64,000 bases of DNA from Halichondria panicea. Lineage: Eukaryota > Porifera > Demospongiae > Suberitida > Halichondriidae. The stretch is taken from the NCBI RefSeq assembly GCF_963675165.1, contig NC_087382.1:7488315-7552314 (forward strand), given 5' to 3'. The position numbers and the translations under genes are program-made. Shown piece by piece: positions 5,806-55,319 of the stretch. Under the pieces are notes generated by a model. That model saw only the letters and a program-made list of their open reading frames with translations. It was not told where the DNA came from and made no database searches. Positions within the stretch are counted from its first letter, which is position 1. The number at the start of each line of letters is the position of its first letter.

Positions 5806-6539
5806 TACCGTAGAAACTGGATTATTAGCGCTACTCGATTATAAGCGTATCTTTATTTTAAGCGCATGCTCAACTGCAGGCTTTTTATACTCGAATTGAA
5901 GCGCTTTTCCAATTATGCGAAGGTTATTAGTGTAATTTTAGAATTGATTCAGCTAATTTTGTTTATCTATGAGCTATAGTTAGCTTGTTACGACAAACGT
6001 ACCGTGCATGATAGCTATCTGTAAGGACTCTCTTTTTATACTCGAATTGAAGCGCTTTTTCAATTATGCGAAGGTTATTAGTGTAATTTTAGAATTGATT
6101 CAGCTAATTTTGTTTATCTATGAGCTATAGTTAGCTTGTTACGACAAACGTACCGTGCATGATAGCTATCTGTAAGGACTCTCTGGGCATGCTGTTACCT
6201 TGTTTGATCATGCTGAGAGAATGTGAGACATGGATGAGGTCCTTTTATTCCAAGTTCCTGGTCAATATGAATGTTTTTATAATAATTATGAATTTAAATG
6301 AACTGTAAAATGAACTGTAACATAATAGTATGATATAGATCCAGTTAGGGTTGCCTGCTTGCCTTGCTTGCTCACTTTCTAGCCAGCTTGCGAGTCGAGT
6401 GAGCTCTCATCACAGAGACATCTGGTTGCTGGGTGGGGCTAAAAATGACTGCATTATAGGCGCATTCTCGAATATAAGCGTATAGAGCTCTGCTATTGAC
6501 CCTAAAAGCGCATGCGCTAATAATCCAGTTTCTACGGTA
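5806..6539. mobile_element. Mariner-like miniature inverted-repeat element (MITE)
   Basis: Perfect 26-base terminal inverted repeats at 5806-5831 and 6514-6539. Excluding the outer TA on each side, the ends read CCGTAGAAACTGG and CCAGTTTCTACGG, so the flanking TA fits the target duplication typical of Tc1/mariner transposition. At about 730 bp and with no transposase frame it must be non-autonomous. Inside lies a recent 151-bp tandem duplication (5881-6182). Element boundaries are directly visible; superfamily assignment rests on the TA only. Confidence 0.75.
5881..6182 (+). repeat. 151-bp tandem duplication inside the MITE
   Basis: 5881-6031 and 6032-6182 are near-identical. The difference I see is TTTTCC versus TTTTTC near base 28 of each copy. 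This points to a recent duplication or replication slippage within the element. Confidence 0.85.
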
Positions 6540-7061
6540 TGCCCTAACCACTTTTCAGAGTACTTGCATGGGTTAATGTGTAAAACAAAAGGGCATTGCC
6601 ATACACACATACATGTGGATTACTACCTTATAGTCATTCTGAAATGATTTTTGATAAATACGCTATCAGTGTGTACACATCATAATCAGGGGGTGTAGTT
6701 CCTCAAACAATTTTGTGGCGCTTCTTTGCATAGCCGGACTGTTCTCCACTTGCTTGCTACGGCCTCGCAATGTCATGTACTTGCAATGATCATTACCACC
6801 ATTTCTATACAATCATGATAATTATTCATAATGATTATACCAATTTGGATCAGTGTCAATAATAGTTATTATTTTTTCAGTAAATTGAATGCTATAAAGG
6901 AAGCTATAATGTAACAGCAGGGGAAGCACTTAGATTAATGTGTATTGAGTGCAATTATGTGCAATAATGAGACTGAGTATACTTGCATTACTTGATTTGT
7001 TATAGACCTTGCATTGAAAATGTGTTATGTAATTGTAGGACTGGGCAAAGTATAAAGTGAA

Positions 7062-7145
7062 ATGCTGAAAAACAGACGTAGTTCACTTCACATCATGTTA
7101 GGGCAAGCCATAGCCCTCCTATCCTTTGTGGTGATAGTTAGCTCT
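7062..7145 (+). other. Signal peptide of the giant repeat protein
   Basis: Basic start (KNRR), a hydrophobic core (AIALLSFVVIV) and small residues SS before Gln 29 give a typical secretory signal with predicted cleavage after residue 28. No second hydrophobic stretch follows, so the product should be secreted rather than anchored. Confidence 0.8.
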
Positions 7146-10100
7146 CAAGACTCAAACCTGGTAGACCAGATTGTTGTACAACTCGGAGATGAAGATCTAA
7201 ACAGTATCAAGAGCGGTGATTTGTGTTCCGATGATGAAGATTGCTATCTTACCTTCATGCCTGATGCTATTAGAGATGTTGTGAATAGGGCTATAGCAGG
7301 TACTAGTAGAGACCAGTGCTTCAAAGTTGACGGCTTCACACCTGACATGTCAGCACCCGAGCTCACTAGCTTTGAAGAGATGGACTTGGACAGTGGGTTG
7401 CTTACACTTATATTCTCTGAAGTTGTTCGTACGACATCTGTGAACTTCACTGCTGTGAGCCTCCAGTCGACCTTTGACACTTCGGGTTCGGTATACACAC
7501 TAACACCAGGTATGGTACTTGGCCCACTTTTCTCGACTATGGTATCTCTTCAACTGAATGAGTTCGACATAAACGAGTTGAAACGAATCAATCAGATTTG
7601 CACAAGCTTGTCTAACTGTTGGATTTTCTTCACACAGGAATTCATACAGGATGTAGCTGGAAATAATATCATGGGGCTGGTCAATGGAGACATCTCTCTC
7701 ACAAGGCGTGCTCTCAGAGTTCCTGGAGATATAACTCTTCCAAATATTGTTGCTTACGATGTGGATTTGGACGCAGAAGAAGTTACTTTCTACTTTGATG
7801 AGGTTGTAGATCGTAGCACATTTGATATAACGAGAGTTGTGTTTAGCTCATCGGCAAATGTATCTGTCAACTACATGCTAACCAATGCACGACATCTCAC
7901 CACAGAAGTGGCTGTGACTAGCTTCACCATTCTTTTGGACGAGGAGGACGTCTTGAATCTAAAAGCAATTGACAATTTTTTTACCAACGTCAATGATACA
8001 TTCCTCTCTCATAGTGACCAGCTTATTGATGATCAGTTTGGTAATAGTATCGATCCACGTGTCATAGGAGAAGATGCTTTGCAAGTGAGGAACTTTACTC
8101 GAGACCGAACAGCTCCCGTTTTTCTTGCTTTCGACATACTGGATGTTGATGCTGATCGTATACAACTGAGTTTTGATGAGCCTGTAGATTTACAGTCAAT
8201 TAATGCTAGTAGAATTATTTTGAGGTCAGCCCCACTCACAGATACCTCTGCTATCAGTATCCCGCTTACTAGCATCAGTAGTTCAAGGTATACTTCCAAT
8301 GATAGACTCTCGGTTGAGATATTTTTCAGTGATGAAGACATTCGTGCGATCAAACTAGAGCCTTTGATCGCCACTAGTTCTGCAAATAGCTACATATATC
8401 TTCTCGCTGGAGCTATTTTTGATGTAGCAGGCAATAGTATAGATTTATCTCCTATTGCTCAACAAGCTGTAACTCATCTCATAGATACCCGTGGCCCCGA
8501 GTTAGTTTTCTTTAGCCTGAATCTAACAAGTAGCATCTTGTTTCTATCGTTCAATGATATCGTTAATGTGAATACACTTGATGTCAGAGAGATTACTATA
8601 CAGCCAGACAGCACAGGTGTATCCACAAGTACATACACACTCACCAACAGTACCAGCTCCTCTCTCAATGGCTTTGAAGTCTTAATTGAACTTTCTGAGT
8701 ATGACACTAACGGAATCAAAGCATTACCAGGCCTTGCATCAAATGCCAACAATACATTTATATCTCTCACGGCAGGTTCACTGATGGATATTTTTGGAGC
8801 CAATATTATCTCTGTGCTTCCGACAGATGCATTTCTTGCAAGTGAGTTTTTCCAGGATCTAATTTCGCCTGAGCTTAGATTCTTTGGCCTGGACTTCAAT
8901 CGAGAAACACTTTCTTTATCTTTTACGGAGATTGTGGATGCCAACTCATTCGATGTTTCCTTAGTGTCACTCCAAAATTCCCCAGCAGCTGCAACTAGGA
9001 TTTACCAACTAACGGGAGGTTCCATTGTGAGCAATAGATACAGTACCAACTTTGAGATCGAGTTAACTCGAGATGACCTCAATACTATCAAGCTGTATAC
9101 TGACCTAGCTATTAGCCAGGATACAACGTACATTAGCTTTCCTCGAGCAACTATTGTGGATGCTAACAACAATAACGTTGCTGAAATATTGCCAGGGTCA
9201 GCCACAATTGTGACCAATCTAGTTCTTGATACCACTGCTCCTATCCTTAGATCGTTTGATTTTGATTTGAACATCGGACAATTAGTAATAACTTTTGATG
9301 AAACAGTGAATGCAATGACATTTCAGCCTGATCAGATAGTAATACAATCTGCTGATACAATATCGTCTCCCAGTTCATATTTCACTCTTACTGGTGGAAG
9401 CAACTCTCTTGAGAATTCTCCCATTATAACAGTGAACATTACCACTTCTGATTTGAACGCCATTAAACAGAATCTCGAGTTTGGAACAGCCTCTAGTAAC
9501 ACATACATCTCACTAACAGATATGGTGGTAGAGGATATGAGAACCAATCCATTTGTAACTATGTCTGCAATCCAAGTGACATCATTTGTTGAAGACATTA
9601 CAAGCCCAACTCTCAGTTCCTTCATCCTTGACTTGAACGTAGGATTACTGAACCTCACATTTTCTGAAACTGTTGATTCAACAACTCTCCAAATTCCTGC
9701 TATAAATCTTGTTGCTAGCAGTAGTGCCAACACCTCTGATCAGATTTATACTCTCAGCATTGGACCCTATCCCAATGGATCCATAAGTCTGAGTCCCAAC
9801 TCTACAGACATCGTCATCAATTTAGGAAGGCATGATTTAGATGAGATAAAACGTCTTGTTTTGCTTGGTATAGATGTAAATACCACCTTCATAGTCATCA
9901 CAAATGAGACAATTTTAGATATGAGTGGGAATGCAGTTGCACCGATTGCCTCAGCTATGCCTCTTCAAGCATCATTTGTAGTTGAAGACATTACACCACC
10001 AGAGCTTGCAGCATTTTCTCTAGATATAAATAATGGCTTCCTAAGGCTCACATTTTCAGAGACAGTGAATGCATCTTCTCTTAGTGTTGCTGGCATCAGT

Positions 10101-13100
10101 TTGCTTTCAAACTTTACGATTACCAGTGAAGAAACGTACACCCTTATGGATAGTATCGTGAAATCAGAAGACAACTTTGTTATTGAGATCCAAATCGGTG
10201 AAGAAGATCTTAACTTGATTAAATATAGACCTATTCTAGCCGCTGATGAGACAAGCATTTATATTCAGTTGGCATCCGATACCGTACTGGATATGAGCAA
10301 CAATGCATATGTGAACAGTACAAACATCCTGCCAATTACTTCCGACACACTTGTCCCTGACACTACTCAGCCTAATATTACTGATTTTTCGCTCGATCTT
10401 GATCTTGGAATATTGACACTGACTTTCAATGAAGTAGTTAACACGTCCACTCTTATTCTCAATACCATCACATTGCAAAGCCTGGATAGTTCACTTTCAA
10501 CTGATTTTATGCTGACTGGTGGCAATTTATCTGGTCCTAACATCTTTCCTGGACATCCACCAGTTTTGAACATCACAATTCTTATCGATGATTTGAATTC
10601 AATTAAAAGGCTTACTGACCTTGCAGTTGATTTTTCAACAACTTTTCTTTCCATCCCAGACGGTGCTGTCTCTGATCTCGCACCATTTCCGAATGATTTG
10701 CTAGGAATATCACCTGATAATGCTTTGCAAGTTGCTAACTTTACTAGTGATCAAACGTCTCCTGAGCTCCTTTACTTCAACCTGAATTTAACATCAGAAG
10801 AGCTGCTTTTGGTATTCACTGAAACAGTTGATATAAGCTTGTTGAATGTATCGCAAATTACTCTTCAATCTGCAAGGGATTTTTCAAGCTCCAGTCAGAA
10901 CTATACTCTGGAAACAAGCTTTGCTCCCTCTACCGTCGATGACACGAATATACTTATATCTCTAGAAGACGTTGATTTGAATGAGATTAAACTTCGTGAC
11001 TCACTTTGTACAGCTCCTTCAAACTGTTTTATCTCACACACAGTCTCCACTATCAGAGATATGAACGATAATCTAGTAGTTGAAGTTTCTGATACCCAGG
11101 CAGAAATGGTTCGTGAATTTGCTGCTGATATAATCCGACCCAAATTGCTAAGCTTCGATCTCAATAACGATTTAGGAACTCTAACTTTGTTCTTCTCAGA
11201 AGCTGTTAATGTGCAAACCCTCAATATTTCCAGCATTGGACTCTACGCTTTCCCTGAAGCCAATACTAGCGACACTGTACAAGTTTTAACTCCTGGGATT
11301 TTCCCTGATTATACTGACACGCAGAGTAACAATGGATTGATGATAATCCTTAGGTTAGGATTTGCAGATTTGTTCGATATCCAGCGAAAACGAGGCCTTG
11401 CAACAGATGATGGTAATACTTTCTTGAAAATTTCTACTGGTGCTATATTGGACATGAATGGCATTGGGTTGATTGGAATTGAAGGGAATGAGTCTATTAA
11501 TGTCTCACGCTTTGAAGAAGATGCCACTCCCCCCCAGCTGCTTGACGCCATCTTAGATGTGAATTTGGGCCTATTGAGCCTAACGTTCGATGAGACAGTC
11601 AACGTGCGTGTACCACCGTTTGCACCTGATGCTATTGTTCTGCTCACTGTAAACGAAACGCAGACATTGCCTCAGATTACCTTATCAGCAATATCAGTAG
11701 TTCAAGAGAATGATGATCCCATAGTAAATATAACACTCACAAAGCCAGACCTCGACGAGCTCAAACTGTTTGTCGATTTAGGTACTGAAGTCAGTAACAC
11801 CTATGTTCACCTAATGCTGGGTGCTGTGCTGGACAATTCCATTAATCTACCTGGAGGAGGAAATGCAATAGAAGCTGTCACTATTCAAGTATCTGATGTC
11901 GTAGAAGACACCACACCCCCTATACTTGAAGCATTCGAAGTTGACCTCAATAGCGGTCTTCTTATCTTGTACTTCAATGAACCTGTGAATGGAAGCACTG
12001 TCAATTTTGGTGCAATTACATTCCAGAATGCGGAAATGCAGCAGAATGTTACTTCAACCTTTACTCTTGATAATGGAACTGTTGCGGATATTGGTGGCAC
12101 ACTGAATGGTCTAATGTTAACGGTGAATCTCACAACAATGAATTTCAATGACATCAAATTCCGAGATACTCTCCTTGTATCTAATGACACATCGTTTATT
12201 GTTGTAACTACCGATCTTGTTCGCGATATGGCTGGCAACCAACTTCTACCACCAGTTATTCCTCTGCAAGCATCAGCTGTAATTCTTGATTCTGATAATC
12301 CAAATTTGGCGCTCTTTGAACTGGACATGGATCTTGGTATTGTAACATTGATATTTGATGAGCCAGTGAATATTTCCACCCTATCTGTTACAGAGATAAC
12401 ACTTCAGCAAGAACCAGTGATAGGTATCAACACAACAATGCTACAGTTGAGTGGTAGTGAAGTGCTCACTGATAGCAATGGTTTGGTTGTCATGTTCAGG
12501 ATTTTGGAGTCTGATTTGAACGAGCTCAAACGTTTGCAAATAGGCTCAGCACCTGTGACCTCTTTTGTTACCTTATCAGCTGACACTGTTGTAGATATTA
12601 CTGGGAATGCTGTGAATGCGGTAACTGTTGGTAGAGGAGTGTCGACATTCTCACCAGATGTGAACAAGCCTGTTCTCACTCGATTCGATCTCAACTTGAC
12701 ATCTGAAGTACTTACCTTGTATTTCTCTGAAACTGTTCGAGCTAGATCTTTGGTAGTAGCTGAGCTAACATTAGAGGATGCTACTAATACAGTTATACTT
12801 CCTTTGACTAGTTCCAGTACTGGAATAAGCAATGATGGTACTGAAATCGATGTCCTGCTCGGTTTGAATGACCTCAATCAGATTAAACTATTGGAAGCAC
12901 TTGCAACTGGTGTGGAAAACACTTATCTTTCCTACACCTCTGCCACCATATCTGACATGGTAGGTAATGCTTTGGAAAACAGCTCCATTTCAACTCCCCT
13001 TCGTGTTACTAACTATACAGCAGACATGATAAGTCCTGAACTGCTTAACTTTGTTTTGGATCTCACGAATGAGACATTGATTTTGTCTTTCTCAGAAACT

Positions 13101-16100
13101 GTGAATGCTTCTAGTTTCAATCCAACATCGATCACGATTCAAGGCAGTGCCGTAATTGCAGATTCCTTTGTGACTTTGAGAGATGGTGTAGTTGGTGCCA
13201 ACAGTGACATACTTACGGTAATGCTTTTCACTAACGACTTAAATCAGCTAAAAGTTTATCTTAATTTAGCAACGGATGAGCCGAACACATTCATCTCTTT
13301 TGATTCTATGATGGTATCAGATATGAATAACAATCTTATTGTTGAAATTTTTAACAGCTCTGCCCGTGAAGCTGTCTTGTTCCTTGATGACACGATACAG
13401 CCAGAATTGGATAGTTTTGATCTCAACCTAAATAATTGTGTCCTGACTTTGAACTTTTCCGAGACTGTATCTGCACCATCACTGGATGTCACAACTATCG
13501 TGCTTCAAGATGATACCAATTCAACCAACTGTTACACTTTGACCTCAGGAACAGTCCAGACTGAGAATTCTTCTATAATCGAGGTTACTATCTCCAAGTA
13601 CGACAAAAACCTAATAAATGAGAGATTCACCCTAGCAACTGGACTTAGTGATACATATATCAGCTTAGGAATGAATGCAATAGAGGATATGAATGGAAAT
13701 AGAAATACTGAAATTCTCAAGGACTCTGCTATTCCTGTCAGTGTGTTCACTCCTGATACAACTTCCCCTGCAATGGTCAACTTCACTCTTGATCTCAACA
13801 ACAGTGTAATAGTGTTCCTATTTACAGAAACAGTGGATGTGAGTACCATCAACTTCACAACCATTACTATAATCAGTGACCGTTACAATACAAGCGTCAA
13901 TACTACTGAATACACTCTCACAAGTGGCTTTGTGTCTCAACGGAACTTCACGGATGTGACTGTAACACTTGTCGCAGATGATTTGAATGCGATAAAAGCT
14001 GACCTAATGCTTACTACCAGCATTGACAATACATTCATATCATTTACCAGTGATCTCATTGAAGACATGCATGGGAACGCAATCAATGACATTCCAAAAT
14101 CTGGGGCTGTTCTAGCTTATGACTACATTGAGGATACCACTCAACCAATGTTGCAATCTTTCGGGCTGAATTTAACTTCGGATATTCTTAGCCTTTCATT
14201 TGATGAGACGATAAGTGCGGCTACCTTTAGTGCATCTTCATTCACTTTGTCCAATTATCCTGGCAGCTCTGTGTTTTATACCCTCACACAAAGTGAGCTT
14301 ACCTCAGCAACTGATTCGACTGAGATTTTCATTCAGTTGTCGTATGTAGATGCCAATGAGATTAAACGGCTTCCACTAGCAACATCACCAAATGATACCT
14401 ACTTATCGATTGGTCCTCTGGCCATTCAAGACACCAGTGGTAACGTATTAACCGAAATATTACAAAATGAGGCTGTATCAGTAATCGGATTCTATGCAGA
14501 TAATGTTAACCCTACACTACTTTCATTCAATTTTAACGTAAGTAGTGGTGAGATCATGCTGACATTTTCTGAAACAGTAAATGCTTCGACCTTGATGATT
14601 ACTGGGTTCACACTGCAATCTACTAGTAACAGATCCACACTGATCAACTCAGAAGGAGTGTATCAGTTAACATCTTACTCCACTTCTTCAGAAGCAAACA
14701 GCCACATTATTATGATAACAGTTGAAGCATTTGACTTAAACCTCATAAAAAGAGACACTACCCTGGCTATTTCCAATGAGACTATTTACATATCTGTGCT
14801 GTTCGGTTCTGTGGAGGATATGAACGGGAATTCATTGGAAGCCATTTCTTCAGAATCTTCCCAACGTGTCTTGGAATTCACAGATGATTTCATTGCACCA
14901 GAAATATTTGCATTCAACTTGTATTTGAATCCAGGAACTGAAAATCTTGTACTCGAGCTTGTATTCTCAGAAACTGTCAATGCTTCATCAGTACAGCCCA
15001 CAGAGTTCACATTCAGTAACAGTCAGAATGGTACCAACATCTTTGTTCTTACCGGTGGAAACGTGTCCTCTCTTGACTCAACTGTGGTTCAAATATATGT
15101 TCTCCCTGCTGACTTAAGAAGCATCAGACTTCTTGATGGAAATCTGCTACTCACACTTCCAGAGACTTCCTACTTATCTCTTTCCTCAGCAGCTCTCTTT
15201 GACATGGCTGACAATTTTGTAGTACCAGTTCTTCCTGGTGATAGACTTTTGAACATCAATGGCTCTAATGCAGACTTGAATCCACCAGTTCTGCAATCCT
15301 TCATTCTTGATTTGGATGTTGGATCATTCTTTTTGACATTTTCAGAGCCTGTATACGATTTTGAATTTAGGCCCACAAATCTGACAATTCATAATGGGCA
15401 AGATGTCAGTTTTAATTCTACTCTGGGATCTTATTACACTCTTAGTGGTGGTGTTGCTCAGAATCTGCCTGCTATGGAGAATGTTATTGAAGTGAAGATT
15501 ACTGAAAATGACTTTAATGAGATTGCTAAGATTACAGACCTGGCTATGTCGGTAAACACATCCTATGTATCAATTACACGGGGAATCACGATTGATATAT
15601 CAGAAAATGAAGCTAGATTTATATCGCCCGATAATGCACTTCGAGCTGAACAACTAATTTTGGATATGACAGATCCTATACTCAGAGCATTTGAAGTGAA
15701 CCTCACTTCCGAAATCCTAACCTTCTTCTTCTCTGAGACAATAAATTCAGAATCTGTCGACACTACGATGTTCACTTTTCAAAACAGCATAAGCTCTGCT
15801 ACTCTCTTTTATACACTCAGAAGCAGTACTGTGCTCACTCAAAATTCTCCCGAATTGAGGATCCAGCTCTCAGAAGTAGACATCAATGGCATCAAGCTTA
15901 TCGATGGTCTCTTAACATCTTCCACTGATACTTTCTTGTCAGTGGATAGGGAGGCTCTCATGGACATGACAGGAAATGAACTAACTGATATATTTCCCAC
16001 CAATGCTTTGCCGGTGCAGTCATTCTTCGGTGACACAATTAGTCCTCAATTGGTGAACTTCACAATTGATCTGGATCTAGGTGTACTCCTTTTCTCATTC

Positions 16101-19100
16101 GATGAAACTGTCAGAGAAACAACGTTGGATGCCACAAAGATCACATTGTTTAGCTCCAGCAATAACTCGGAGCACAACCTCACTCTATCAAATGGTTTCA
16201 GTAATACAGACAACAGCAACATGTTGAGTATTTCTTTGAGTTTAGTAAACCTTAATGAACTGAAACGATTGCCATTTTGCACAGATGCAAGTGATTGTTT
16301 CCTTTCATTCACGGAGGACCTAGTGCTTGATATGATTGGACTCCCTGTGATTGAGGTCACAGCAGAATTGGCTCTTAGCCCAAATAGTTTTGTGCCAGAC
16401 ACTACCTCTCCTGAACTAGCTAGTTTCCTGCAGCTGGATTTCAACCTTGAAACTGTGACACTACAGTTTTCTGAGACCCTCAACATTGACACAGTAAACC
16501 TGGCTGACATTACATTCCAAAGCTTGTTCACTGATGCCTTAGATTCTGTATCATTGACAGGTGGAAGTGTCCCTGATCAAAACACTTCCACCATTGTCGT
16601 ACAGCTTGGTCAAGCTGATTTAGATTCTTTAAAGCAAGAGTCACTCGTCTGCTCCATCAGAGGAAACTGCTATGTGTCACTCACCTCTCAGTTTGCTGAA
16701 GACATGAATGGAAATCGTGTGGTTGCTGTAGAGCAGGAATTCCCAGGATTCCTTGTTATGGATTTTGTTCGTGATCTGATCCAACCCAATCTGATTGCTT
16801 TTGACCTCAACCTGGCAGCTGGCACTCTTGTTCTTGAATTCAGTGAGCCTATTGACTACACTTCCATCGACTTTTCAGCTCTACAACTTCAAGGAGTCTA
16901 TGACACTTTCAATACTACAGGCTTGGTTATTTTCCCACTCTCAGAGAGGCAGACAGTTATATCTTTGAGTACGAGATCAGTTCTCGTGACCTTAGTCACT
17001 GCAGACGTTGAACGGCTGAAAGCTTCTCGTTACTTCGTTGACAGAAACTCAACCTTTATAGCTATTCTTTCCACTGCTGTGAGTGACATTGCTTTTTTCC
17101 CAAATTCCATCAAGGAGATCAATGAAACCGATGCGCTTCAAGTTCGTAACTTCACTGGAGATGTTGATGGTCCTATTCTCTCTTCATTTGAGCTCAATTA
17201 CATCACAAATCAGCTATTACTAATGTTTAATCAACCTGTGCTTGTGACATCATTTGATTTCACACAAATATCTTTCAGCTCAGTATCTATTCCCCAAATG
17301 GGAGATGAGGTGTACACGCTTACTGGTGGTGAAGTAGTAAACACAGATTCAAATTTTGTTGGCTTGATGGATGTAAATATTTTTCTAAATCAACAAGATA
17401 TTACAGCACTAAAGTCTTCACTCACTCTAGCAACAGACGTGACTAATACATATATCACTATCACGAATGAAACGGTCTTGAACACGTTTGGGGAAAGAAA
17501 TATGCAAACTGACGGACTTCGAGCTATGAGCATTGTTTCAGATCCGACCCTTTCTCCTGTAAGGCTCTCCACATTCACGCTTGATATGAACACTGGTGTG
17601 ATTGAACTCACTTTCACTGATGTTGTGAGGAGCAGCACATTTGATCCAACTGCAGTAGTCATACAATCTGCTGCTTTCTCTAATGAGGAAGAGAGATTTC
17701 GACTCTCAGCTGATAGTATCTCATCAAGTCCTGATGGATTCTCACTACTAGTAAACTTGAGTGCAACAGATCTGAATTCTCTTAAGACCTTGCCAAGTCT
17801 GGCAACTGGCAACAATACCTCTTACCTCACTATTCAAGCATCTGCAGTTGAAGATGTCTTTGAGACGAACATAATTGCTATCACTAATGGCAGAGCTCGT
17901 CAAGCTAGTGGGTATGTAAGAGATTCTATTTCTCCAATGCTGAATGAATTTACCCTCGATTTGAACAAGGGTCAAATTACATTGACCTTTTCGGAATCTG
18001 TAGATGCTAATACACTTCAGCTTGATAGCATCTCTTTGCAGAGCGAACTGAATAGCTCTAATGCTGAGGTATGGTACGTTAATTCCACAGACACAGAGGT
18101 GGAATTGCCATCACTACTTGAAATCAGGCTCACTCTAACTCCAGACAACCTCAACAAGCTTAAGCAATTTCCTAATGTTGGTACTAATGTTAACAATACC
18201 TACATAGTTATTGCTGAGAATGGAGTTCTCGACTTTGCCGAAAATTCTTACAATGACTCTACCCCACTAATTGCTGCACGTGTCATTCCAGACACCACCC
18301 CACCTGAGTTGGTTCAGTTCGATCTTAACTTAGACACTGGCAGCCTCACTTTGACATTCAGTGAGACAGTAAATGCATCATCAATCAACGTGAATGGTTT
18401 CACTTTTCAAGAAGCAGAAACATATCGAACTGGTGAAGTTGTTATACTGCAATCCTCTGTGCCAATGCTAACAAACGCACCTTCGATAGTCATTCCACTC
18501 TCCCTTGGTGATCTCAACACATTAAAACAGACACTGACAGTTGCTACAAACCGCAGTAATACATACCTAACAGTCTCAGAAGATGCATTCTTTGATATGA
18601 GCTCTCTTCCTGGGGTACCTATTCTGGACACAGCTGCTCTGCAAGTCACAACCTTTACTCAGGATATTACACTACCAAGACTTGTATCATTTGGTCTGAA
18701 TTTAACGACGGACACTCTCACTTTGTACTTCTCAGAGACTGTGGATGTATCAACATTGGATGCTACTGAGATCACTCTTCACAGTATGCAGGCCAATGGC
18801 TCTTCTGTATCTCTGTCTGGCGGTTTCTCTACATCTCTGGATGGACCTGTAGTGAAAATAATTGTCCCAACCATTGACTTGAATGTCATCAAACTGAATG
18901 AAGACTTTGCCACTACTGCTGATAATATTTACTTGTCATTGACTTCAGCAACTATTGAGGACACTGATGAAAATGCTGTCTCTGCTATTGAGCCTTTTGA
19001 TCCAATGTTAATCGATCCCCTCGAGTTCTATCCAGATTTAACATCACCTGAACTCCTTTCGTTTGTATTTGATGCAGACTCTGGTATTATCACACTTACC

Positions 19101-22100: not shown

Positions 22101-25100
22101 GTCAATTCACTATCACTTTTGACTACTAGTATAACTCTTCAAGACGAGTCAACTGCTGCCAATAGCTATCAATTGGTAGATGGATATACAGAGAGTATTA
22201 ATCAGTCCGTGATTGTGGTGAATATATTGACAACTGACTTGAATGAACTAAAGAAGAACACTAGCATAGCTACAATGCCAGAAAATTCTTTCATTGTTAT
22301 AACTAGCTTGCTTATTGAGGATATGAGTGGGAATTCAGTCTTGGAAATAATTGATACTGATGCTTTGAATATTACGATTCATATCCCAGATACCACTCCT
22401 CCATTCTTAGTCAGCTGGAATCTAGACATGGATGTTGGAAGAATTAGCATGACTTTCTCAGAAACTGTTAATGCTTATACCTTTGATCCATCGGCAATAA
22501 CAATCCAAGCCACATCTTTCGTGGGTGCTTTAGATTTTGCCTCTCTAACGTATACTCTACTTGGAGGTAGCTCTACAGAGGAAAATAGTACTGTGGTTGA
22601 GTTTGATATCCTTCGTGATCTCACAGAAGCTGTGGATGACTTGAATCAACTGAAGAACAACACAGAAATTGCAACATCTCTTTCTGACACATACATCTCC
22701 TTCCCTTCTGATTTACTATTGGACATGAACGGTATTGCAATCGTCCCACTGAATAATGGTGATGCTCAACCAGTACAAAACTTCACTAATGATACGACGT
22801 CTCCACTTTTGTACGCATTTGACATTGATATGAATACAGGGGAGCTAATACTAACTTTTGATGAAGTGCTAAATCGAAGTACACTAACTCTCACTAGTTT
22901 CACAATCCAACAAGAACCTAACGCACTAGTGCCTACTCTAGTCAACGAGACATTCTTGAATGGCAGAGTAATTCTAGAAGTTGAAAGAAATCTGTCGAAT
23001 GTGGTTCTGAACTACACATTGACAGGAGGGACAGTAGGCAATTGGAATGACCAAATTATCCGAATTCGTCTCAATTTTGCTGATCTCAATAGAATCAAAC
23101 GGCTTGAACTATGCACGGATATGAATGAAGTGAACGATTGTTTCATCAGATTCACTCAAAATGTTTTTGACGATATGAATGGTAATTCAGTGACACCTAT
23201 AGATACCTTTGATGCAAGAATGGCTAGAATTTACATACCAGATGATACATCACCAGCGTTGATGGATTTCGTAGGATTTAACCTAGTCACAAATAGAGTT
23301 CGAATAGAGTTTACTGAGACTGTTAATGTGAGTACCTTTGATCCAACTCAAATAACTTTTCAAAGATGGACCTACGATGATAGCAATCGAACGAATGTAC
23401 CTTTCGAGATGTACACACTCACTGAAGGAACAGATATCACCGAAATAAATGACATAACAGTTGAATTCACGCTAGTTGTTGAAGATCTCAATGTTATCAA
23501 GCAAAGGGAAGAACTCTGTGTCATTGATCGAAATTGTTTTATTAGGTTTACTTCTACGGTGGTGAGAGACATGGCCAATAACAATGCTTTCAGGCTCGAT
23601 GACTCTTTAGCTGCCCTACTAACTGAGTTTCCTACGATCTATGTAGAAGACAGAGTCTCACCGATCTTAGTGTCTTTCAACTTGGATATGGATAATGGGA
23701 ATTTGTCTTTGACCTTCGATGAAACTGTTTCATACACTGATTTCAGATCAACTGCAATCACATTGCTTAGTGCTCAGTTTAATGAAACAGAAAGCATTAG
23801 TCTAAGTGATAAACAGAGCATTACCAATCTTGACTGGGTGTACATTATATTGACGATCACAAATGAAGACCTGATGGTATTGAAATCACTTGACGAGCTA
23901 GCGACATCTGTAAATGACACTTGGTTGGAAAATAGAGCTAGTCTAATTGAAGATCAGAACGGTATTGCTGCAGCTGTCAGAGACTCCACTAACAGGCTAC
24001 AAGTGTCTAATTTGCTACCAGATGTTACTTCTCCAACACTCACAGATTTCAATTTCCATTTAGGGACGAAAATTATCACCTTGATTGCAGACGAACCAAT
24101 CTACTTGCCCTCTGTTCGTCCAGAACTGATTGCTATTATTTCCAGTTCTAATATTTCTGCATCTGGTACTACCTTCTACCGACTAACTAGTGGCAAGGTG
24201 TCGTATGAAATGCCTGAAGTTTACATGAAACGTCGAGTAAATATCTTACTCACCGACGAAGACTTGTTCCATATCCAACTCAACAATGGTCTTGCAACAG
24301 AATCTTCAAACACTTATCTGTCTATTGAGAATGGTACCTACACGGACATGTTTGGAAATGTAGTACTGGAAGTCCCAGATACAAATGCACGTCCGGTGAA
24401 TATGTACGAGGGTGATGATGAAAGAGTAAAACTACTTATGTTCACCATTGATTTAGACACTGGTACACTTGATCTAACGTTTGATGATACTATTGAAGCT
24501 GTAACGTTTGTGCCATCTGGGATCACACTCATAAATGATCCTTACAATATCACAACAACATACACTTTCACTGACGAGACATACACAAACTCTACAAATG
24601 GATACACACTGCACATCATTCTATCACAGGTTGATCTGAACAACATCAAAAACGATCTCAGTCTTGCTACTAGCCGCAACAACACTTTCCTTTTAACTGC
24701 TCCACCTCCGAATGTCCCTATATCTGATACATCCAGCTTACCTCTCGAACCAGTTATCATTGGCCTTCAAGCCGAAAACTTCACAGAGGATTCATCAAGA
24801 CCACATTTGATGTACTTTGACTTAGATCTCAATGAGGGTACCATTTCTCTCAACTTCAATGAAACAGTAAGAGCAAGAACTCTGAACGTGACAAATATTG
24901 TCATTGGTAGCAGTGAGAATTTTACAACAGCTTCTTTTACTCTTCAACTCACTGGAGGAAATTCTACCCAGACAGATTCTACTTTAATTGTTGTGACCCT
25001 TCTTACAGAGGATCTTAATGAGCTGAAGCGAATCACTCCTGGCTTAGCTACTAATATGAATGATACTTATGTTGCTTTCAATAATGAAACACTTCTCGAT

Positions 25101-43100: not shown

Positions 43101-46100
43101 TTTGCACTTGATCTTACGACTGAGAGTATGTCTTTTACATTCTCAGAAACAGTCCTAGCATCAAGTTTCGACCCAACAGCTCTCACTATCCAGAACTTTG
43201 TGACCTCCACTCGTGATGGACAGTACACTCTGACCGGTGGATCAGTTCGCCAGCAGGACAATACTTCTGTCTATTTGCAGCTGATTTTTGAAGATGTGAA
43301 CATGCTGAAACAACTCGAGAATATTGCAACCTCCACCAACAATACCTTCATCACCTTCACAGCTGGTCTGGTAACAGATACAAACAACAATGAAATCATT
43401 CCATTGGTGAATGGAGAAGGTCTACAAGGGCGCTTTGCAGGAGATGAGATCGCTCCACAGTTACTCTCTTTTGTAGTTGATCTGAATCGTGGTCTGCTGT
43501 TCTTGAACTTCAGTGAAGCTGTCAACATCTCTTCCCTCAGGCCAGTAGATATCATTTTACAAGACTGTTGCCAAGATTGCAAATTTGGCAGCACTGAAAG
43601 TGGTAGCACTCAGCTAGTGTCCAGTGGAGGCATGAGTGGTAGTGGTCAAATTTTTCTTAGTGGAAGTAGCAGTGGAAGTGGCAGTGGAAGCGGCAGTGGA
43701 ATCATGGACCCTTCTTCATTCTGTAATATGTCTGACTATCTCTACACATTGACTGGTGGTGAATGCACTGATGAGCAAAATACTAGGTTTGTTTGTGAAG
43801 TGAGTGACTTTGACTTGAATGAGATCAAGCGACTGCCACTATGTGTGTTCAACAACCAAGGGCAGGATTGCTGCTTAGCTTTTCAGAATCAGTCGATAAC
43901 AGATCAATCTGGAACTCCTATCAATAGTTCCGTTTTTGAAGGCTGCGGATTCACTGTAACACAGTTTGTCCCTGATGTTAATCTCCCGTATTTAGTGGAA
44001 TTCACTCACATGAACTTAGACTCAAGAATTTTGACTATCACTTTCAATGAAACCATTAATGCAAAAACAATCGATTCCACACAGATCACTCTGCAGTCCT
44101 TTTATAGGAATGCCCAGTTCTCTCACACTCTTGTGGGAGGACAGGTATTGACAAATGACAGTACAATTGTCATGATTTCACTAACTAGTGAAGACCTGTT
44201 TGAAATACAGAGACAAAGAGGACTGTGTTCTGACATCAACAACTGTTGGATCTCAATAACCGATAGATTTGTGCTAGACATGTCAGACAATAGGAATGTA
44301 GAAGTACCAACTAGCAATGCTAAAGATGCTCTCAGGTTCACAGATGACTTCAGCAGGCCACAACTAGTTGCCTTTGATCTAAATCTTGATGATGATACTC
44401 TGACCCTATCATTTGGCGAGACTGTTGCTTCGTCTTCTTTTGATCCAACTGGTGCTATTATTCTAAACGCACGCTCTGACAGTGCCCTCTATGTACAACT
44501 AACTGGAGGTAGTACAACCAGCCCTGATGGCCAAGAAATAATCGTCAACCTTTTGACAGTTGATACCAATATGATCAGAGCCTCTGATGAGATTGGCACA
44601 ACTCTGAACAATACTTTCATATCCATCACAGACAACCTCATCACAGATGCTGTACGAAGAAATCCGAATCCTGTACTGAACATCAGTTTCACAGAAGCAC
44701 TTCAAATTAGCCGATTAGTTGAAGACAACCAGTCACCTCGACTGTTATCATTTGCTGTAGACTTCGTGCAGGATGTGATTTCTTTGACCTTTAATGAGCC
44801 AGTTCGTGTCTCTTCCATTCGATACGAAACTATAACTATTCTCTCTGAGCCGTCTATCAATGCTGTTGATGCTTACAACCTAACTGGTGGTCGTAACACA
44901 ATAGCTGCAAACATGAATGGTACAATGGTTCTAACTGGTCATCTAGAGCCAGTTGATGTAAGATATTTCAAATTATCAACTCTTCTTGCTACATCCATCG
45001 TCGATACATGGCTTAGTATTCAAGCTGGTGGCATCAATGACATGGCAGGCAATTTCTTAATTGGCATACCTATCAATTTATCTCTACCTGCCTCCTCATT
45101 TGTGGCTGATACAATGCAGACATCTCTGATTGGTTTCACTGTAGACATGAATCTTGGTCTCTTGCACCTCACATTCGATGACATTGTGGATGCAAGCACA
45201 TTCTTCCCAAGGGCTCTGACTCTGCAGAATGAGAGCTTCAGTAATGAACGGGATGTAGTTCAACTGTCACCAACGAGTTTTACTGAGAGTCAAGATGGCT
45301 ACTTCATAACTGTGAACATATCTGTGGATGACTTGAACGCAATAAAACTAAATGACAATCTTGCAACTGGGTTAAGTAATGTCTACCTATCAATGCAAGC
45401 AGAGGCATTTGATGATAACTTTGGTAGAGACGTTGTGGCAGTAACTGCTCATGAAGCTAGGCAAGCTGATAATTTCACTGAGGATACCACTTCTCCGGTG
45501 TTAGTCTCGTTCGAGTTCAATGTAGACAGTGGATCAATTTCTCTGTTCTTTGACGAAACTGTAAGAGCAAATACGATCAATGAAGATGTCATCATTCTTC
45601 AAAATGCTCAAAATATTTCAGTTGTAACAGTGTCACAGCAACTCTCTGGAGCTAACTCTTCACAAGAAGACTCAACATTGATAACTGTGTATTTGTCAGA
45701 AGACGACTTGAACATGGTCAAAGCATTCACAGACCTGGGAACTATTGAAAGTAATACCTTCATTTCCTTCAGCTCAAGCCTTATCAGAGATATAAACAAT
45801 AATTCGGTCGTATCTCTACCAGTAGAAAGTGCACTACAAACATCACGACTGTATCCCGATGACACTTCTCCGCAAATTGTATCATTCATACTTGACCTGA
45901 CTGCAGAGTTAATCCATATCACATTCAGTGAAACCATCATGGCTAACTCTACTATGATCCCAGAATTCTCTCTTCAGGGTAGCCCGTCAAGGCAAGACTT
46001 TAGAGTGCTTCAGGACAGCACCCACTCACTTCTCGACTTCAAAGTGCTCACAATATACTTAGGAATCAATGACTTGAATGAGATCAAGCGACTTACGTCA

Positions 46101-49100
46101 GTTGGAACTAACATCAACAACACTTATCTTACTGCCACAACATTGGCTATCCAAGACATGAATGTCAATCCACTTGTACCTACATTACCATCTCTAGCCT
46201 TGAGAGCATCAATGTTTACATCGGATTCTATCCTTCCTACGCTACTGGGATTCAACTTAAATCTGTCTTCGGAGATACTGACCCTGTCTTTCTCTGAAAC
46301 AGTGCGAGCTTCAACACACTCTGTTTCTCTCTACACCATTCAGTCAAGCATGAGCTTGGCTAACTCAGTGCAATATTACTCGTTGACAGGCGGCATCTCA
46401 CAGCATTATGACAGTCATGTTATTGAAGTGGAACTGACGACTCCAGATCTGAACGAACTTAAGAGGCTGGTGTATCTTGCAATCAACAACGAGACTACAT
46501 TCCTATCAGTTGATAGTGATGCAATCTTTGACATGAACAACAATCCTCTAGTTTCTGTATTGGAGGAATCTGCATTACCTGTCTCACTATTCCATGAAGA
46601 TATCATCGATCCTGAGTTACTGTCATTCAACTTGGACATGAACAGTGGTATACTGACACTAATGTTCTCGGAAACAGTTCAAATAAGTACGTTTGGCATC
46701 ATGCAAATATACTTTCAAGATTTTGCAAGGAGTGTGGATAATTACAGGCTTTCAAACAATAGCTATACTAACAACTCTGACTCAGCAATTGTTGTTATCC
46801 AGCTGCACTCAGTTGACTTAAACGAAATGAAGAGACTGTACACACTTGCGATAGATAACTCAAGCGCTTTCATTTCTTTCAATGATCAACTGGTACAAGA
46901 TATGAACGAGAATAGTATTGTGCCTATTTCAAACGATGAAGCACAGCTAGTTACTATATTTGTTTCTGATCAAACACGTCCAACTCTTGCAATGTTCGAT
47001 CTCAACCTAAACAGCAGCGAACTGCGTCTTGTTTTCAGTGAAACAGTCAATAGAGAGTCACTTGATGTGGAATCTATTACAATACAGAATTCTGACTTAC
47101 TACTAGGGTCCCTCCAGTTGACGCAATCTAGTGAATCTTCCTCTCGAAACGATACCTATATCATAATTGACATTGGTTTGTATGACCTCAACAACTTGAA
47201 ACGGCTGACTGAAGTAGCAATATCAAGAAACACAACTTATCTCTCTTTGAACTCCACAGCTATCAATGACATGAATGAGAATGCAATTCTTCAGATTCCA
47301 GGCTTCATGGCTCTGCAAGTATCTAGCTTTGTACAGGATGAAATTCGGCCAATGTTGCAAGCATTCAGCCTGGACATTGATGCTGGAATTCTACGATTGT
47401 TCTTCTCCGAGACAGTGAATGCCTCTTCATTAAATGTATCTGCCATAACGTTGCAGTCCTCAATGACCATCTTAGCAGAAGAAAGCTATAGACTACAGGA
47501 TGGCATTTCACCAGAGCTGACAAATACCAACAGCTCAGATGATGCAACCCTCACTGTACTCATAGGATCAATCGACCTAAATCTAATCAAGGCTAACTAT
47601 CTTCTTGCTAACTCTAACGTGACAATTTTCCTTTCCTTGAGTGTGTACGCTGTTATTGATATGGTTGATCTGCCAAATGAGCCTATTTTGGAAAATATGG
47701 CTGTGCAGGTGGCAGAGTTCATTGAAGACACCTCACAACCACTACTCCTTGGATATACTCTCAACCTCACTTCAGAAGAGCTTGTTCTAACATTTGACGA
47801 GACAGTCAATACTGGCAGTTTTGAAATAACGCAGTTAACTCTGCACTCAACACAAAACATCACAGTTGGCTCCTACATGATGCTAACAGATACAAGATTA
47901 GTGTCAATGATGAACAGCACAGTTGTGACAGTAACATTTGGTCAAGATGACCTCAACTTTATCAAGCTAGATACTGAACTAGCAACTGCAGATAATAACA
48001 CCTATCTCACAGTCACTTCTCAAGCAATCCAGGATATGGCACTCATTCCTAACCCATTGTTACCAACCACTCTACAAGCAGAAATATTTGAAGCTGATCT
48101 AGTGAATCCACAGCTCATATCATTTGTTGTGGACATGAATGTCGGTGTACTGATTCTAAACTTTGACGAACCTGTCAATTCAAGTTCTCTGAATCCAACA
48201 GGATTTAGTCTTCTCTCAGAGAGGAATGTGTCTCTATCCATGATGATGAGTGCAAATGCTACAAATGATACATCTGGAAATGACACGAGCACCTTTGAAG
48301 CTATTTCTACCTTTACGCTGACTGGTGGTGCCACTAACAGTAGCAATGGCCTACAAATCACTCTCTACTTCACAAATGATGACTTGAATGCAATCAAAGA
48401 AGATGAAGATTTATACACGAGCAACTTAACATCATATTTGTCAGTAAATGAATTTGCGATAGCTGACATGAATGACAACCTACTGACTGAATTAAACTCC
48501 TTTGAAGCCCTGCAAACAGCCATGTATGTCAGTGATACCACATCACCTCTTGTTCTCAGTTTTGATCTGGACATGGATGAAGGAATTCTTACCTTGAGCT
48601 TTGCTGAGACTGTGAATGTAACATCTACAATGTTTGATGGGATTGTCCTGCAAAGAAGTTCAAATGTAACAACAGCAAGTTATTCATACATGCTAACCGG
48701 TGGTCAGCTAACAATGATGGAAAACGGCTTGGTCGCTGTGATACAGATCTCTCTTGAAGATCTCAATGAGGTCAAACGTCGCAGGATAGCCTTGTCCCCA
48801 AATACAACATGGTTAGCAATAGAGGAGGCAACACTGCTTGATATGAGTGATCGGCCACTTCAACCTCTATTGAATGGACTGAATACCATTATCGTCACAA
48901 ACTATACCTCTGACACTACTCCTCCAGTGTTGGACTCCTTCACCCTTGACCTTGATTCTGGAGTAATCACACTTTTCTTCTCAGAGACTGTCGTCACTAT
49001 GACATTTAACGTGACGTTTACCACTTTCCAAGATACTGCTAATGGTAGTAACTCTTTCAGTCATGTCATGCTCACCAACTCAAGCTATGTCAATGGCACC

Positions 49101-52100
49101 TCCTATCATATTATCCCAATCGTACTCGGTCTGGATGACTTAAACACGATTAAACAAGAGCCATACTTGGCCACTAGTCAAAACAACACATTCCTTTCGT
49201 TTTACAGTGATCTGGTTGAGGATATCTTTGGTAACAACATTCTTACCGTTCTACAAAATGATTCTATCCAAGCATCTGAATTTTCTCAAGATATCACCCG
49301 TCCTCAACTTGAGGCCTATGATCTTGACATGGACTCGAGGAGGCTAGTACTGAGATTCTCAGAAACAGTGAATGCCTCATCACTGCAAGTTGATGGGATC
49401 ACTGTCATCAGTGACCCTTCAGTTACCGAGAGATACATGCTCGATTCTAGCACACTGGTACTCATTTACAGCCCAGAAATTGTAGTCACCATATCCAGTG
49501 AAGATTTCAACGCTATTAAAACTCTAACAGCATTGGCAACAAATGAAAATGATACCTTCCTTGCTATTGAGATGTTTACCATTACAGACATGGCAGGCAA
49601 TTTCGTAGTAAATATCAGTGAGACTGAGCCTTTGAGAGTGAGTCGATACATCAAAGACCTTCAACCTCCAGAGCTCACTAGCTTCAACTTGGACATGGAC
49701 AGTGTTGTACTCTCTCTAACTTTCTCAGAAACTGTTAATGTGAGCAGTATTGACTACACTGCAATTACAATCCTGAATCCAGATGCTCCATATCTATCGT
49801 ACACTTTGTTGAGTGGTGAAACAATTTCTCTCAATGGACCGCAGATTGTCATACAGATAACGAAAATTGACGAAGATAATATCAAGAGAATAAACAACCT
49901 TGCCACAGAGATGAATAATACATACATCTCAAGTACATCTGAGCTGATTGCAGATATGGATGATAACACCATTCTTAATATCTCCTCATTTGATCCTCTC
50001 AAGGTTGCCAACTTCACTCCGGACACCACACTCCCAGCACTTATCTCATTCGATCTCAACCTCGATGCTAACAATGTCACTCTTGTCTTCTCAGAGACTG
50101 TAAATGCTAGTACCTTGGATATTATGGGAATATCATTCCAAAGCCAAAGCAGTTTTGCTGTGAATGCAACTACTTCATATAGTCTTACCAACAGCATTGT
50201 TCAACCAGTTTCCAATGATCCCATTGTGAGCATTCAACTGAGTCGATCAGATAGAGACAACTTTAAAGAGCTCATTGCTCTGGCGGTGGACATGAATACC
50301 ACCTTTGTTGTGCTAGCTGAAGGAGTGGTTTTGGATATGGTTAGTCTTCCTATTCGTGCAATCAATGAAACTGGTGCTCAGCTGGTACAAACGTACACAA
50401 TGGACATGACATCACCATACTTGGAAAGTTTCAGCTTAGACTTGAGTGCAGAGATCCTTTCATTGAACTTCTCAGAACCTATACTCATTAGTACACTCGA
50501 TGTATCAGACATAAGCTTTCACAGCAGAATGTCAAGTAGTAGCTACACACTAACTGGAGGTATTGTTGTGAATGTACGTCACAGCTCCTATCTGATGATC
50601 ACACTCTCCACAAGTGATCTGAATGCAATCAAAGTGAACACTGACCTTGCTACCAGTATCAACAACACCTACATTACTTTCACTGAAGCACTGGGTGAAG
50701 ACACATCATCAAATACAATCTCAGCACTTTTAGATCCGGTGCGAGCAGACAGTTTCACAGAAGATTTGGTTAAACCGACCCTCCTGAGTTTTGAACTGGA
50801 CTTGACCTCTGAAGTATTGATACTGTCTTTCTCAGAGAGCGTTAATGTAGAGAGCATACATCTACCCAGCTTTAGCTTTTTATCGACCCACAATGAGAGT
50901 GTGCCTGAGTTCACATTTAGCTCTAGCAGTTATACCAATAGTGGAAATGGCGATGTGATAGTTGTCATGATTAGTCTGTCAGACCTGAATCGCCTCAAAG
51001 CTAATCCATTTGTTGCTGCAAGTAATGATACAACATTTCTCTCAGTGCTAGAGTCTGCAATTATTGATATGAATAATAATTCTATTGTAGCAATTCCATT
51101 GTCTGCTGCTTTGCCTGTTGCTGTGTACACACCAGACCTACTTGAACCTGCACTTCTTTCATTCGAATTGAATATGAACGAAGAAATCTTGACACTTTCC
51201 TTCTCTGAAACTGTCAACGCATCATCACTAAGAGTTGAAGAGATAGTACTACAATCAATATCAACATCACCTTTGGTTTCTGTAACATTAACTGATGCTG
51301 TGAGTGTATCATCGGAATACGACCCCGTTATTATTATAACTTTGACAAGAATCGATTTGGATAGACTTAAGAGCTTGACTGACCTGGCAACATCTGTGAA
51401 TGATACCTTTATATCTTTGAGTGCTTCTACTATTCAAGATATATTCAATAATCCAGTAGTTGAAATTTCACCAACTGATGCTCTTCAATCTTCACTCTAC
51501 ATTGCAGATGCTACACTACCTCAGCTCAGTAATTACGACCTCGACATTGATGCTGGAATTTTAACAATGTACTTTTCCGAGTCAGTTGCAGTGGACAGTT
51601 TTGATCCCACTGGAATCACAGTTCTTTCCAGTGCTGTACAAGACAGTGGTACCTCATACTACACTCTACGAGACCGTCCTGACAATAGTATCAATGTTGT
51701 AAACAGTGAGTCGACTGTAGTGTCATTTGAATTTTCAGTGTTCGATTTTAACAACATCAAAGCTATTGTACAGTTAGCCACTTCTGCCAGCAATACTTTC
51801 CTCTCAACCGACATGACCACAATTAAGGATCAAACAGGTAATAACATCACTGTGATTCCTGTAACTGATGCTCATCCAGTGAATAACTACACGATGGACA
51901 CAACATGCCCCGTACTAAGCTCTGTATCACTAGATCTAAATGCTGGAGTACTGTTGCTTACATTCAATGAGCCTGTGAATACCAGCACATTTAATCCCAC
52001 AATGGTTTCCATCTTCAATGAAGAGAGCATTGCTCCAGTAGAGCAATATACACTACAGACTGCAATGTACACGGAAATGGTGTATGTGACCGAATTACCT

Positions 52101-55100
52101 CTCTATCTATCCGAATATGATTTGAACCTCCTTAAAGCAAACAAAAATCTTGGAACAACGATTTCCGATACTTATGTATATCTCACTGAGCTGGCAATTG
52201 ATGATGCAGCTATGAATGCTTACTGCAATGATACACTGCCGCTTCAAGCCACTAATGTCACTTTTGACATCACACCACCTCGTGTACTAAACTTCACCTT
52301 GGATCTCACAAGTGAAGTGCTCATTCTAACATTTTCAGAAACTGTTCAGCTACCATTGGATGTAACAAGCATTACTATTCAAGCTAGACCTGAAGATCTT
52401 AGCAGTGGTAGTGCGACGGCAAGTGGTAGTGCGACGGCAAGTGGTAGTGTGACGGCAAGTGGTAGTGCACCGGCAAGTGGAAGTGGCTTGAATATGATTA
52501 TTGAGGAAGCTATTCCTATGCATACTTTGACTGGGGGAGTATCAAACATCAACTACACTACAGAACCTCATATTGTTATTGTGGACCTGATAACTATGGA
52601 TCTCAATATCATCAAGTTTGATACAGAGCTTGCTGTGTCACCACAAACATCATTCATCTCTATATCCAGTGAACTGGCCAGAGATTACGGCCTTACTCCC
52701 AATGATGTGATTGCCATTCCACCTTATGAAACACTTGAAGCAAGTAGCTATATTCCTGACACTGTATCTCCACAAGTGGTTTCGATAAATCTTGATATGG
52801 ATGCTGGAATTCTACGCTTCACCATGTCTGAAGTTGTCAATATTACTTCATTTGAAGTGACAGAAATAGTGATTCAGTCAATGCCATCGATCTTCAATTC
52901 CGCATTTTACCAGCTACAAAACAGTGCTGCTACTATGACCAGCTTAACTGAAGTAACTGTTGAACTTTCCGACGAAGACATTAATAGCATAAAACAAATC
53001 ACAGATCTGGCTACTACCATAGATAACACTTACATCAGTTTCAACTCTGATCTTGTTCGTGATATGTTTGAGAATAGAATTGTTAACACTTCTGGAATAA
53101 ATACTGCTGGTTACAATGAAGATTCAAGTCCGCCCATCTTGGTGAGTTTCGCTCTAGATCTATCAACTGAAGTGCTCACTTTAACATTTGATGAGACCGT
53201 GAATGCAAGTTCTTTGATTGCCACTAGAATACAATTCAGCTCAGACCTGTTTAGCTCTGATTTACTCCCTGTAACGAGTGGCACGGTGTCAACAATAGAC
53301 TCAACTGTTATTGAAATTTTGTTGATTGATGAAGATCTACACAACATCAAACGTAATCTAAATCTTGCAACAAGCCTTAACAACACATGTCTCACCTTTC
53401 TTGCACTTGGTGTCCGGGACTTATCGACTCTTGAAACTGGAAATTTAGAGACAAGTCTTTGTGCTTCTTCATTTGCAGGAGATTTTGTTCGACCGAAACT
53501 TCTACGATTTGTTGTTGATCTGAACAGTGAAATTCTCATTCTGAACTTTGATGAGCCTGTTGACACTGCTAAAGTAAATTTGACTTTTGTAACCTTACAA
53601 TCATCACAAACCATTGGGCCTACAGTTGAAGAATTTACCCTCACGGGGGGAAATGTATCGTCTATCAATCTTCTTCAAGTAACAGTCGGTCTTAATGTAG
53701 AAGATCTCAATGGTATCAAACAAAACCTCCGATTGTTTAGAGATGCAGAATCATCTTACCTCAGATTGGAAGCTGACTTCATCAGTGATCTGAACAATAA
53801 CTCCATCGTGTCGATTAACGAGTCATTCGCTCTTGCAGCATCATTGCCATTTGTAGACGATTCCACTCGACCAATGCTACAGGCCTTTGATATCAATATG
53901 GACAATGGATATCTGACACTGTACTTCTCAGAGACTGTTGATGTTTCAACACTTGACATAACTCAGATTACACTTCAGGTGGACTCTGGTGTAAATGAAC
54001 CACTAGACGAGCATACACTGCTGGATGCTAATATAGTCAGTCTTAATGCACCTATTGTTAATATCGAATTGTCAAATGAAGATCTGAATATTCTCAAGAC
54101 CAGGAGAATCGGCCGTACACCAGCATCAACATGGATAGCAATCACCAATGCCACTGTGATGGACATCACTCAGCAGTCAGTTGTACCTGTCCTGAATGGT
54201 ATCAACAGTATAAACGTTAACACGTACACACCGGATAGGACATCTCCTGTGCTATCATCTTTCTCATTAGATCTCACCTTAAATACGCTGACCCTGTCAT
54301 TCTCTGAAACTATACACACAACAACTCTGAACATAGCAGAAATAACACTATCCTCTGCCCCAGCAACTTTATCTCAAGATTTGATGTATACACTAACACC
54401 AGTTAGTATGTCAGTTAGCGGTGACTTCCCAGAGATTACGATCAATTTGCACAGAAATGACCTCAATGAGTTGAAAAGAAGAACTAGCCTGACTGTTTCA
54501 AATACCACCACATACATTTCCATATCAAGTTTTGCCATCAATGATACATTCGGTAATCCTATCACTGAAATACTGCTCTCAGATGCCTTACCAGTCACTA
54601 AATTCACTGAAGACACTATACCAGCAGTGTTTGAAATGTTTGAGCTCGATTTGGACCAAGGGACAATCACACTCTTCATTGACGAAACTGTCAATACATC
54701 TACTTTGATTACCACTGGTATCACTCTTCTTTCTAGCTCCACACAACCAGCACCCGAAAGTTACCAGTTAGAATTTGTTCATGACAATGTGACTGCACCC
54801 TCTAACATTATCACCATCACATTAGCCAATAATGACTTGAATGAAATAAAAGTCCGACAAGTTGATTCACAAACCATTGAAGATATGAATGGAAATCTTA
54901 TCACACCCTCACCGATCGTACGGATAAGGGTAAATGGTTTCACTGAAGATACTACACCACCTGAGCTATTGACATTCAATATCGACATGGATAGTGGTGA
55001 GCTAAGGATCAACTTTAACGAGGCCATTTTGAGCAGCAGTCTCCAGTTTAACCATTTCGCTCTCATCAACAACGAGACATTTGTTCCCACGCCTGTTGAC

Positions 55101-55319: not shown

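Follow-up and report, generated by a model that had tools for sequence, protein, structure and literature searches.

Titin, an intracellular muscle protein of Ig and FN3 domains with a kinase, is built as a chain of individually conserved Ig-like domains arranged in higher-order repeats, and sponge aggregation factors are secreted sponge glycoproteins marked by Calx-beta and Wreath domains. The available text of PMC12198301 gives the human titin gene 363 exons, the largest of 17,106 bp, with 114 kb of spliced length and 38,138 residues; that of PMC12175726 describes the calcium-dependent assembly of lattices of the bacterial surface-layer (S-layer) protein SbsB, and that of PMC10066038 an Omnitrophota open reading frame (ORF) of 39,678 amino acids, one of the giant bacterial frames for which surface or adhesion roles are proposed. 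Here we analyse a 64,000-nucleotide stretch of the demosponge Halichondria panicea (the window; C6:7488315-7552314, on contig NC_087382.1), part of a 131-Mb genome of 39 contigs, that holds gene A, a single coding exon running from ATG to TAG at 7062-55319 on the forward strand. Like titin, gene A specifies a megadalton chain of individually conserved Ig-like domains; unlike titin, which has many exons in the source quoted, it has one giant exon, a leader peptide and another type of domain. Our reading, to which we give a probability of about two in three, is that the single exon of A specifies a secreted protein of 1.76 MDa in which 133 Ig-like domains of S-layer type follow one another, that A belongs to an old sponge family together with two further genes, B and C/D, and that its product would be a metal-stiffened fibre with position-specific partners.

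The exon of gene A is 48,258 bp long and encodes a protein of 16,085 residues and 1.76 MDa. An earlier note on this DNA had claimed that no stop interrupts these codons, that a secreted-type leader is present and that consistent units continue to the end, and all of this holds. The ORF listing and the translation of 7062-55319 (+) agree in having 0 internal stops, with 0 N in the window; a hydrophobic leader peptide, MLKNRRSSLHIMLGQAIALLSFVVIVSSQ, stands at 7062-7148 (+), as read by eye from the translation; and a hidden Markov model (HMM) of the unit, with 123 positions from 37 seed units, places 133 units, spaced by a median of 124 residues, with inter-unit gaps of at most 26 residues. The stop-to-stop frame extends over 7056-55316 (16,087 codons), and the chance of its being stop-free, given its own codon-position composition, is about 10^-188. 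A hydrophobic leader followed by the same first unit is also found in three relatives from the protein database, P0129, P0130 from Dysidea and P0001 (which has a longer predicted start). The sole tandem repeats reported by Tandem Repeats Finder inside the 48 kb are Ser-Gly/Ala-rich minisatellites at 43659-43701 and 52404-52485.

Unit statistics were taken over 602 units in the four frames A, B, C and D, with 9,654 codons of D covered out of 10,065. The units are old: for the 568 of them whose best hit is longer than 80 residues, identity to that hit peaks at 51.2%, with a median of 38.9%. Positions D1, P5, F23, E25, D73 and D101 are near-invariant, the invariance of D1 being partly built in by cutting the seeds there; position 25 is E or D in 564 of 580 units, and D101 is kept in 566 of 578. 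Cysteine is found at HMM position 90 in 78 of 577 units, by eye often in a C..C pair (LCTSRSNCWI, among the kin of P0129), and these units form a possible disulphide sub-type.

Three protein searches from A, each within a length range, gave 10, 217 (best 120 examined) and 68 matches, or 196 distinct proteins, all compared unit by unit; a relative was called collinear where at least 4 units aligned and no fewer than 60% of adjacent units kept step. The named sources of relatives include Ephydatia muelleri, Geodia barretti, Dysidea avara and Corticium candelabrum, Porifera of two classes. All 65 units of P0129 (7,888 amino acids, 52% identity) are in register with units 1-65 of A, and P0132 and P0133 cover the second half through the C-terminus, which reads GCRQVDA in A, GCRQVDT in P0133, GCRRL in P0131 from Dysidea and GCR in P0156 from Corticium. 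Collinear relatives align 15,421 of 16,085 residues in A (20 relatives), 40,760 of 41,557 in B (37 relatives), 6,034 of 6,172 in frame C (5 relatives) and 10,013 of 10,065 in frame D (21 relatives); the alignment gap at residues 7851-8498 of A is bridged by P0135 and that at 7577-8238 of B by P0172 and P0194, all below the collinearity rule. The case for A as a real and conserved gene is strong, and because the order of its units is common to other organisms the array is old and largely frozen. Some units were nevertheless gained, lost or mis-cut, since in P0130 offset 0 holds for 41 units out of 52, P0131, P0132 and P0133 each show at least two offsets, and P0156 shifts along its length.

These alignments agree with the view of the earlier note that the frame is kept by selection. 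Growth by in-exon tandem duplication, also proposed there, fits the origin of the array, but the order shared across organisms points to an array long since largely frozen. The comparison made there, of an exon about twice the longest familiar ones (the titin and MUC16 exons, roughly 17-22 kb), is an understatement for titin, where the largest exon in the source quoted above gives a ratio of 2.8, and misses the record of the locus, which belongs to the neighbouring gene B at 124,667 bp.

The alternative that survives best, although we consider it improbable, is that the frame is coding but is used as a polyprotein or in pieces, by internal promoters, alternative splicing or proteolysis, so that no full-length fibre is formed. 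In the relatives the array is split among several frames, the longest of about 8,000 amino acids, and the paralogue C/D retains a GT-AG intron, so that the family tolerates breaks; the conservation of unit order and of both ends, however, argues that the pieces belong together. Frames of relatives end within the array at various points, and none of those breaks is found in this genome. Some breaks show intron-like read-through (for example ...TLLSGVSGKC in P0129), and one border, at residue 28921 of B, is shared by the ends of P0178, P0179, P0180 and P0182, which start at 22535-22598; P0146 and P0160 continue across break points of other relatives, and P0135 is uninterrupted where P0129 breaks. 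Since these breaks are absent here, loss of introns may have contributed to the giant exon, although gain of introns elsewhere would give the same picture, and some breaks may be sequencing errors. Runs of at least 20 residues present in the gene and missing from an aligned relative number 0 in A, 0 in C, one in B (28 residues) and three in D (20-21 residues), so that an intron of at least 60 bases is unlikely to have gone unnoticed in the aligned parts of A. The longest relative frame in the protein database, 7,987 amino acids, looks like a database size ceiling, so that relatives with longer frames may be missing and we make no claim on exon length in other sponges.

Far less probable is a decayed or unexpressed relic that stays open by chance. 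In this genome gene A is known from DNA sequence, and the record of P0112, a near-identical match to B described below, is silent on DNA versus RNA; but the chance of a stop-free frame, about 10^-188 in A and about 10^-440 in B (the latter again from its own codon-position composition), the near-invariant acidic positions and the conserved C-termini all oppose decay, and P0142, named in its record as a complete ORF of 7,575 amino acids in the style of a transcript assembly, suggests by that name transcription elsewhere. Slightly less credible again is an assembly artefact in which repeats were falsely joined into a giant frame. Tandem arrays are a classic source of misassembly, but no 30-mer is present twice within the 48 kb of A, nor within B, and best-hit identity between units stays at or below 51%, so that long reads could hardly collapse or expand the A array; the order is also reproduced in the contigs of other organisms, which together tile A and B.

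In the predicted model the unit has the S-layer Ig-like fold of the SbsC/SbsB type, at 14% identity (VIA-align table). A Foldseek ranking, mostly of antibodies with some titin Ig pairs at TM-scores of 0.16-0.33, was not used for naming the fold, and families missing from the structure tables carry little weight. At E<=1, Big_5 (PF13205), the SbsA-type bacterial Ig-like domain, matched 25 of the 114 unit pairs weakly (lowest E 1.6e-5), and several relatives carry PF13205 in the database; in this genome the family gave 0 matches at E<=0.001 and 0 above its curated cut-off, the control being positive in 5 of 14 genomes. At E<=1, Pfam matched no family at either end of A (the first 3,000 residues and the final 2,999), and NCBIfam gave scattered weak matches alone (25 of 36 families listed). 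I-set Ig, FN3 and kinase domains were absent from the ends of A and from the 25 of 45 families listed for 114 of 132 unit pairs; Calx-beta was absent from the ends of A, and from A among the genome matches listed. No relative was found in the viral contigs searched.

The likeness to SbsC and SbsB thus lies in the Ig-like fold of the units, whereas identity is 14%, Big_5 is unmatched here at E<=0.001, and the sponge chains run to 133-335 units in genes with introns. With the aggregation factors and Calx-beta proteins of sponges the link is the sister gene C/D, which ends in TIG and Calx-beta domains; A differs in that Calx-beta was not found in it. Giant bacterial ORFs, such as those of Omnitrophota and Chlorobium, are likewise uninterrupted, but as the available text describes them they have few annotated domains and are mostly poorly conserved, unlike the order-conserved sponge arrays. 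The least credible explanation is that the contig is contamination and A a gene of a bacterial symbiont, encoding a giant adhesin or an S-layer protein, despite the bacterial S-layer fold of the unit, given that C6 is 7.59 Mb within a 131-Mb genome, that GT-AG introns are predicted in B and C/D, that A is followed by a protein kinase frame and by Kelch repeats, and that the named relatives are sponges.

The transcript of A would be translated whole, and the chain would leave the cell through its leader peptide; the leader, an excess of N-glycosylation sequons and a strong negative charge in the array proteins fit a secreted matrix protein. Acidic residues near the unit borders (D1, E25, D101, N105) would bind a divalent metal, probably Ca2+, and this binding would stiffen the chain into a fibre. 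Positions E25, D101 and N105 tend to be lost together (odds ratios 50, 30 and 9.7, on the 12-16 units without E25 or D101), from which we infer a shared metal site at the unit border; the calcium-dependent lattices of SbsB, as described in the text available, are the nearest precedent for such a role. At 4-4.5 nm per unit, a value assumed from similar domains, the fibre would be about 0.6 um long for A and 1.4 um for B, and could bridge cells or span the matrix. That the individuality of the units was kept through sponge evolution suggests position-specific partners over a plain spacer.

Several observations weigh against this reading. The co-loss test depends on those 12-16 units, its p values are optimistic because the units are related, co-loss of D73 and D101 is not significant (p 0.26), and of the 15 control pairs three also have p<0.05, in one case p 0.001 (odds ratios 0.4-3.9 overall). 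A metal site is not seen in the predicted fold model, which holds no ions, and a sequence-profile search of PDB with the unit gave nothing significant (best E 0.19). No AATAAA or ATTAAA lies in the 1.2 kb 3' of the stop of gene A, and in this genome what is known of A comes from DNA sequence.

Gene B lies to the left of A and is divergent from it, across a 3.4-kb intergenic region (3620-7061) that contains two 151-bp copies of a tandem duplication at 5881-6184 (99% match). Its frame, C6:7365159-7489829, has 41,557 codons and 335 units; the giant exon of 124,667 bp occupies 1-1508 (-) with its 5' part and continues to C6:7365156, which exceeds the whole 114 kb of spliced human titin in the source quoted. 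The splice to a first exon is predicted, with exon 1 at 3556-3619 (-) carrying the leader MSSTSHLQLVIFTLLALATMS and a phase 1 intron at 1509-3555 (-) between GT at 3555-3554 and the acceptor AG at 1510-1509; the predicted protein would have 41,576 residues, 4.48 MDa in exon 2 alone. This exon was the lone candidate in a search with ad hoc leader and donor thresholds in which phase 1 was demanded, and an alternative donor was dropped for phase mismatch. The acceptor is echoed in a read-through of P0141 (FYLGAQPSL, against SLGAQPTL in B). The 3' end of B was rejected as a splice donor and is likely a C-terminus, since its YNLTGN matches the YTLRGN ending of P0139 and P0025. B has a clear higher-order period of 23 units: mean scores between its units reach 46.7-54.0 bits at offsets 23, 46, 69, 92, 115, 138, 161, 184 and 207, where the overall mean is 33.3 and the standard deviation 4.0, so that 23-unit blocks were duplicated there long ago. 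In A the scores rise slightly at offsets 19, 38 and 76 (48.0-50.4, with a mean of 43.5 and standard deviation of 2.6), offset 100 is highest (51.0), and a 19-unit higher-order period is weak at best. P0112, an NCBI record whose longest contig has 3,425 bases, is 99.7% identical to residues 2780-3825 of B, so that this species, or one very close to it, may be in a database already as this fragment. A glutamine-synthetase-like frame, recognised by eye, lies downstream of B at C6 about 7361-7363 kb (-).

The third gene, C/D, at C6:2.38-2.43 Mb, consists of frames of 6,172 (C) and 10,065 (D) codons divided by a GT-AG intron whose flanks join within one unit; it has 134 units, followed at its end, in D, by TIG (E 8.2e-19) and Calx-beta (E 3.5e-7). 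Its candidate leader exon has the same phase as that of B, and phase 1 is common to the predicted intron 1 of B and the corresponding predicted intron here. A, B and C/D may be grouped as a family defined by tiling with the unit HMM and by a unit order common to other sponges. A genome search with the first 500 residues of A gave at least 120 matches, all at two C6 loci (86 of 253 candidates scored), and a second query at least 133 at the same two (86 of 235 scored), so that array loci number at least two, only part of the candidates having been scored. Besides D, the listed Calx-beta matches of the genome lie in frames of 61-486 codons; genome-wide there are at least 151 (150 of 645 candidates scored), with short frames often split mid-domain, and at C2:272025-277757 about a dozen near-equal-scoring domains stand in a row.

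Just downstream of A, 56422-58830 (+) holds a kinase frame (Pkinase, E 8.9e-28) and then Kelch repeats (Kelch_1, E 4e-9). A 27/45/72-bp tandem array at 61923-64000 has long frames open on both strands and is inverted past 63653, with no Pfam match in its forward frame. About 10 kb downstream of A, L028:1368-5813 (-) carries Chlamydia PMP-type repeats (E 8.9e-18) in a frame of 1,482 codons. Within the window, Rfam at gathering thresholds and a tRNA scan each returned 0.

These sponge genes were not found among the literature matches listed, and the main text of a survey of huge proteins (PMC11573180) is without sponge, Porifera or exon. No table of exon-size records was found in the literature, so that a statement such as longest exon rests on general knowledge. 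Known larger proteins include PKZILLA-1 (45,212 amino acids) and an Omnitrophota ORF (85,804 amino acids). A bolder proposal, tentative and in our estimate somewhat below even odds, is that B, at 124,667 bp, holds the longest coding exon known and, at 41,576 residues, encodes the largest protein of any animal, and that A, B and C/D would be single-molecule, metal-stiffened extracellular cables of up to more than 1 um that build sponge tissue, each unit with its own address predating the split of two sponge classes.

Such genes may be hidden by annotation, as in Dysidea avara, where the halves of the counterpart of A are annotated apart, as "uncharacterized" models of 6,345 and 7,581 amino acids on contigs stated to be equal in length. 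Translation of these genes over their whole length would move the known upper bounds of exon size and of protein size in animals, and would put to the test transcription, export, translation and secretion from nearly intron-free mRNAs of 48 to 125 kb. The genes also suggest a kind of sponge matrix fibre that has gone unrecognised, built on a domain of the bacterial S-layer type, which would bear on early animal cell cohesion.
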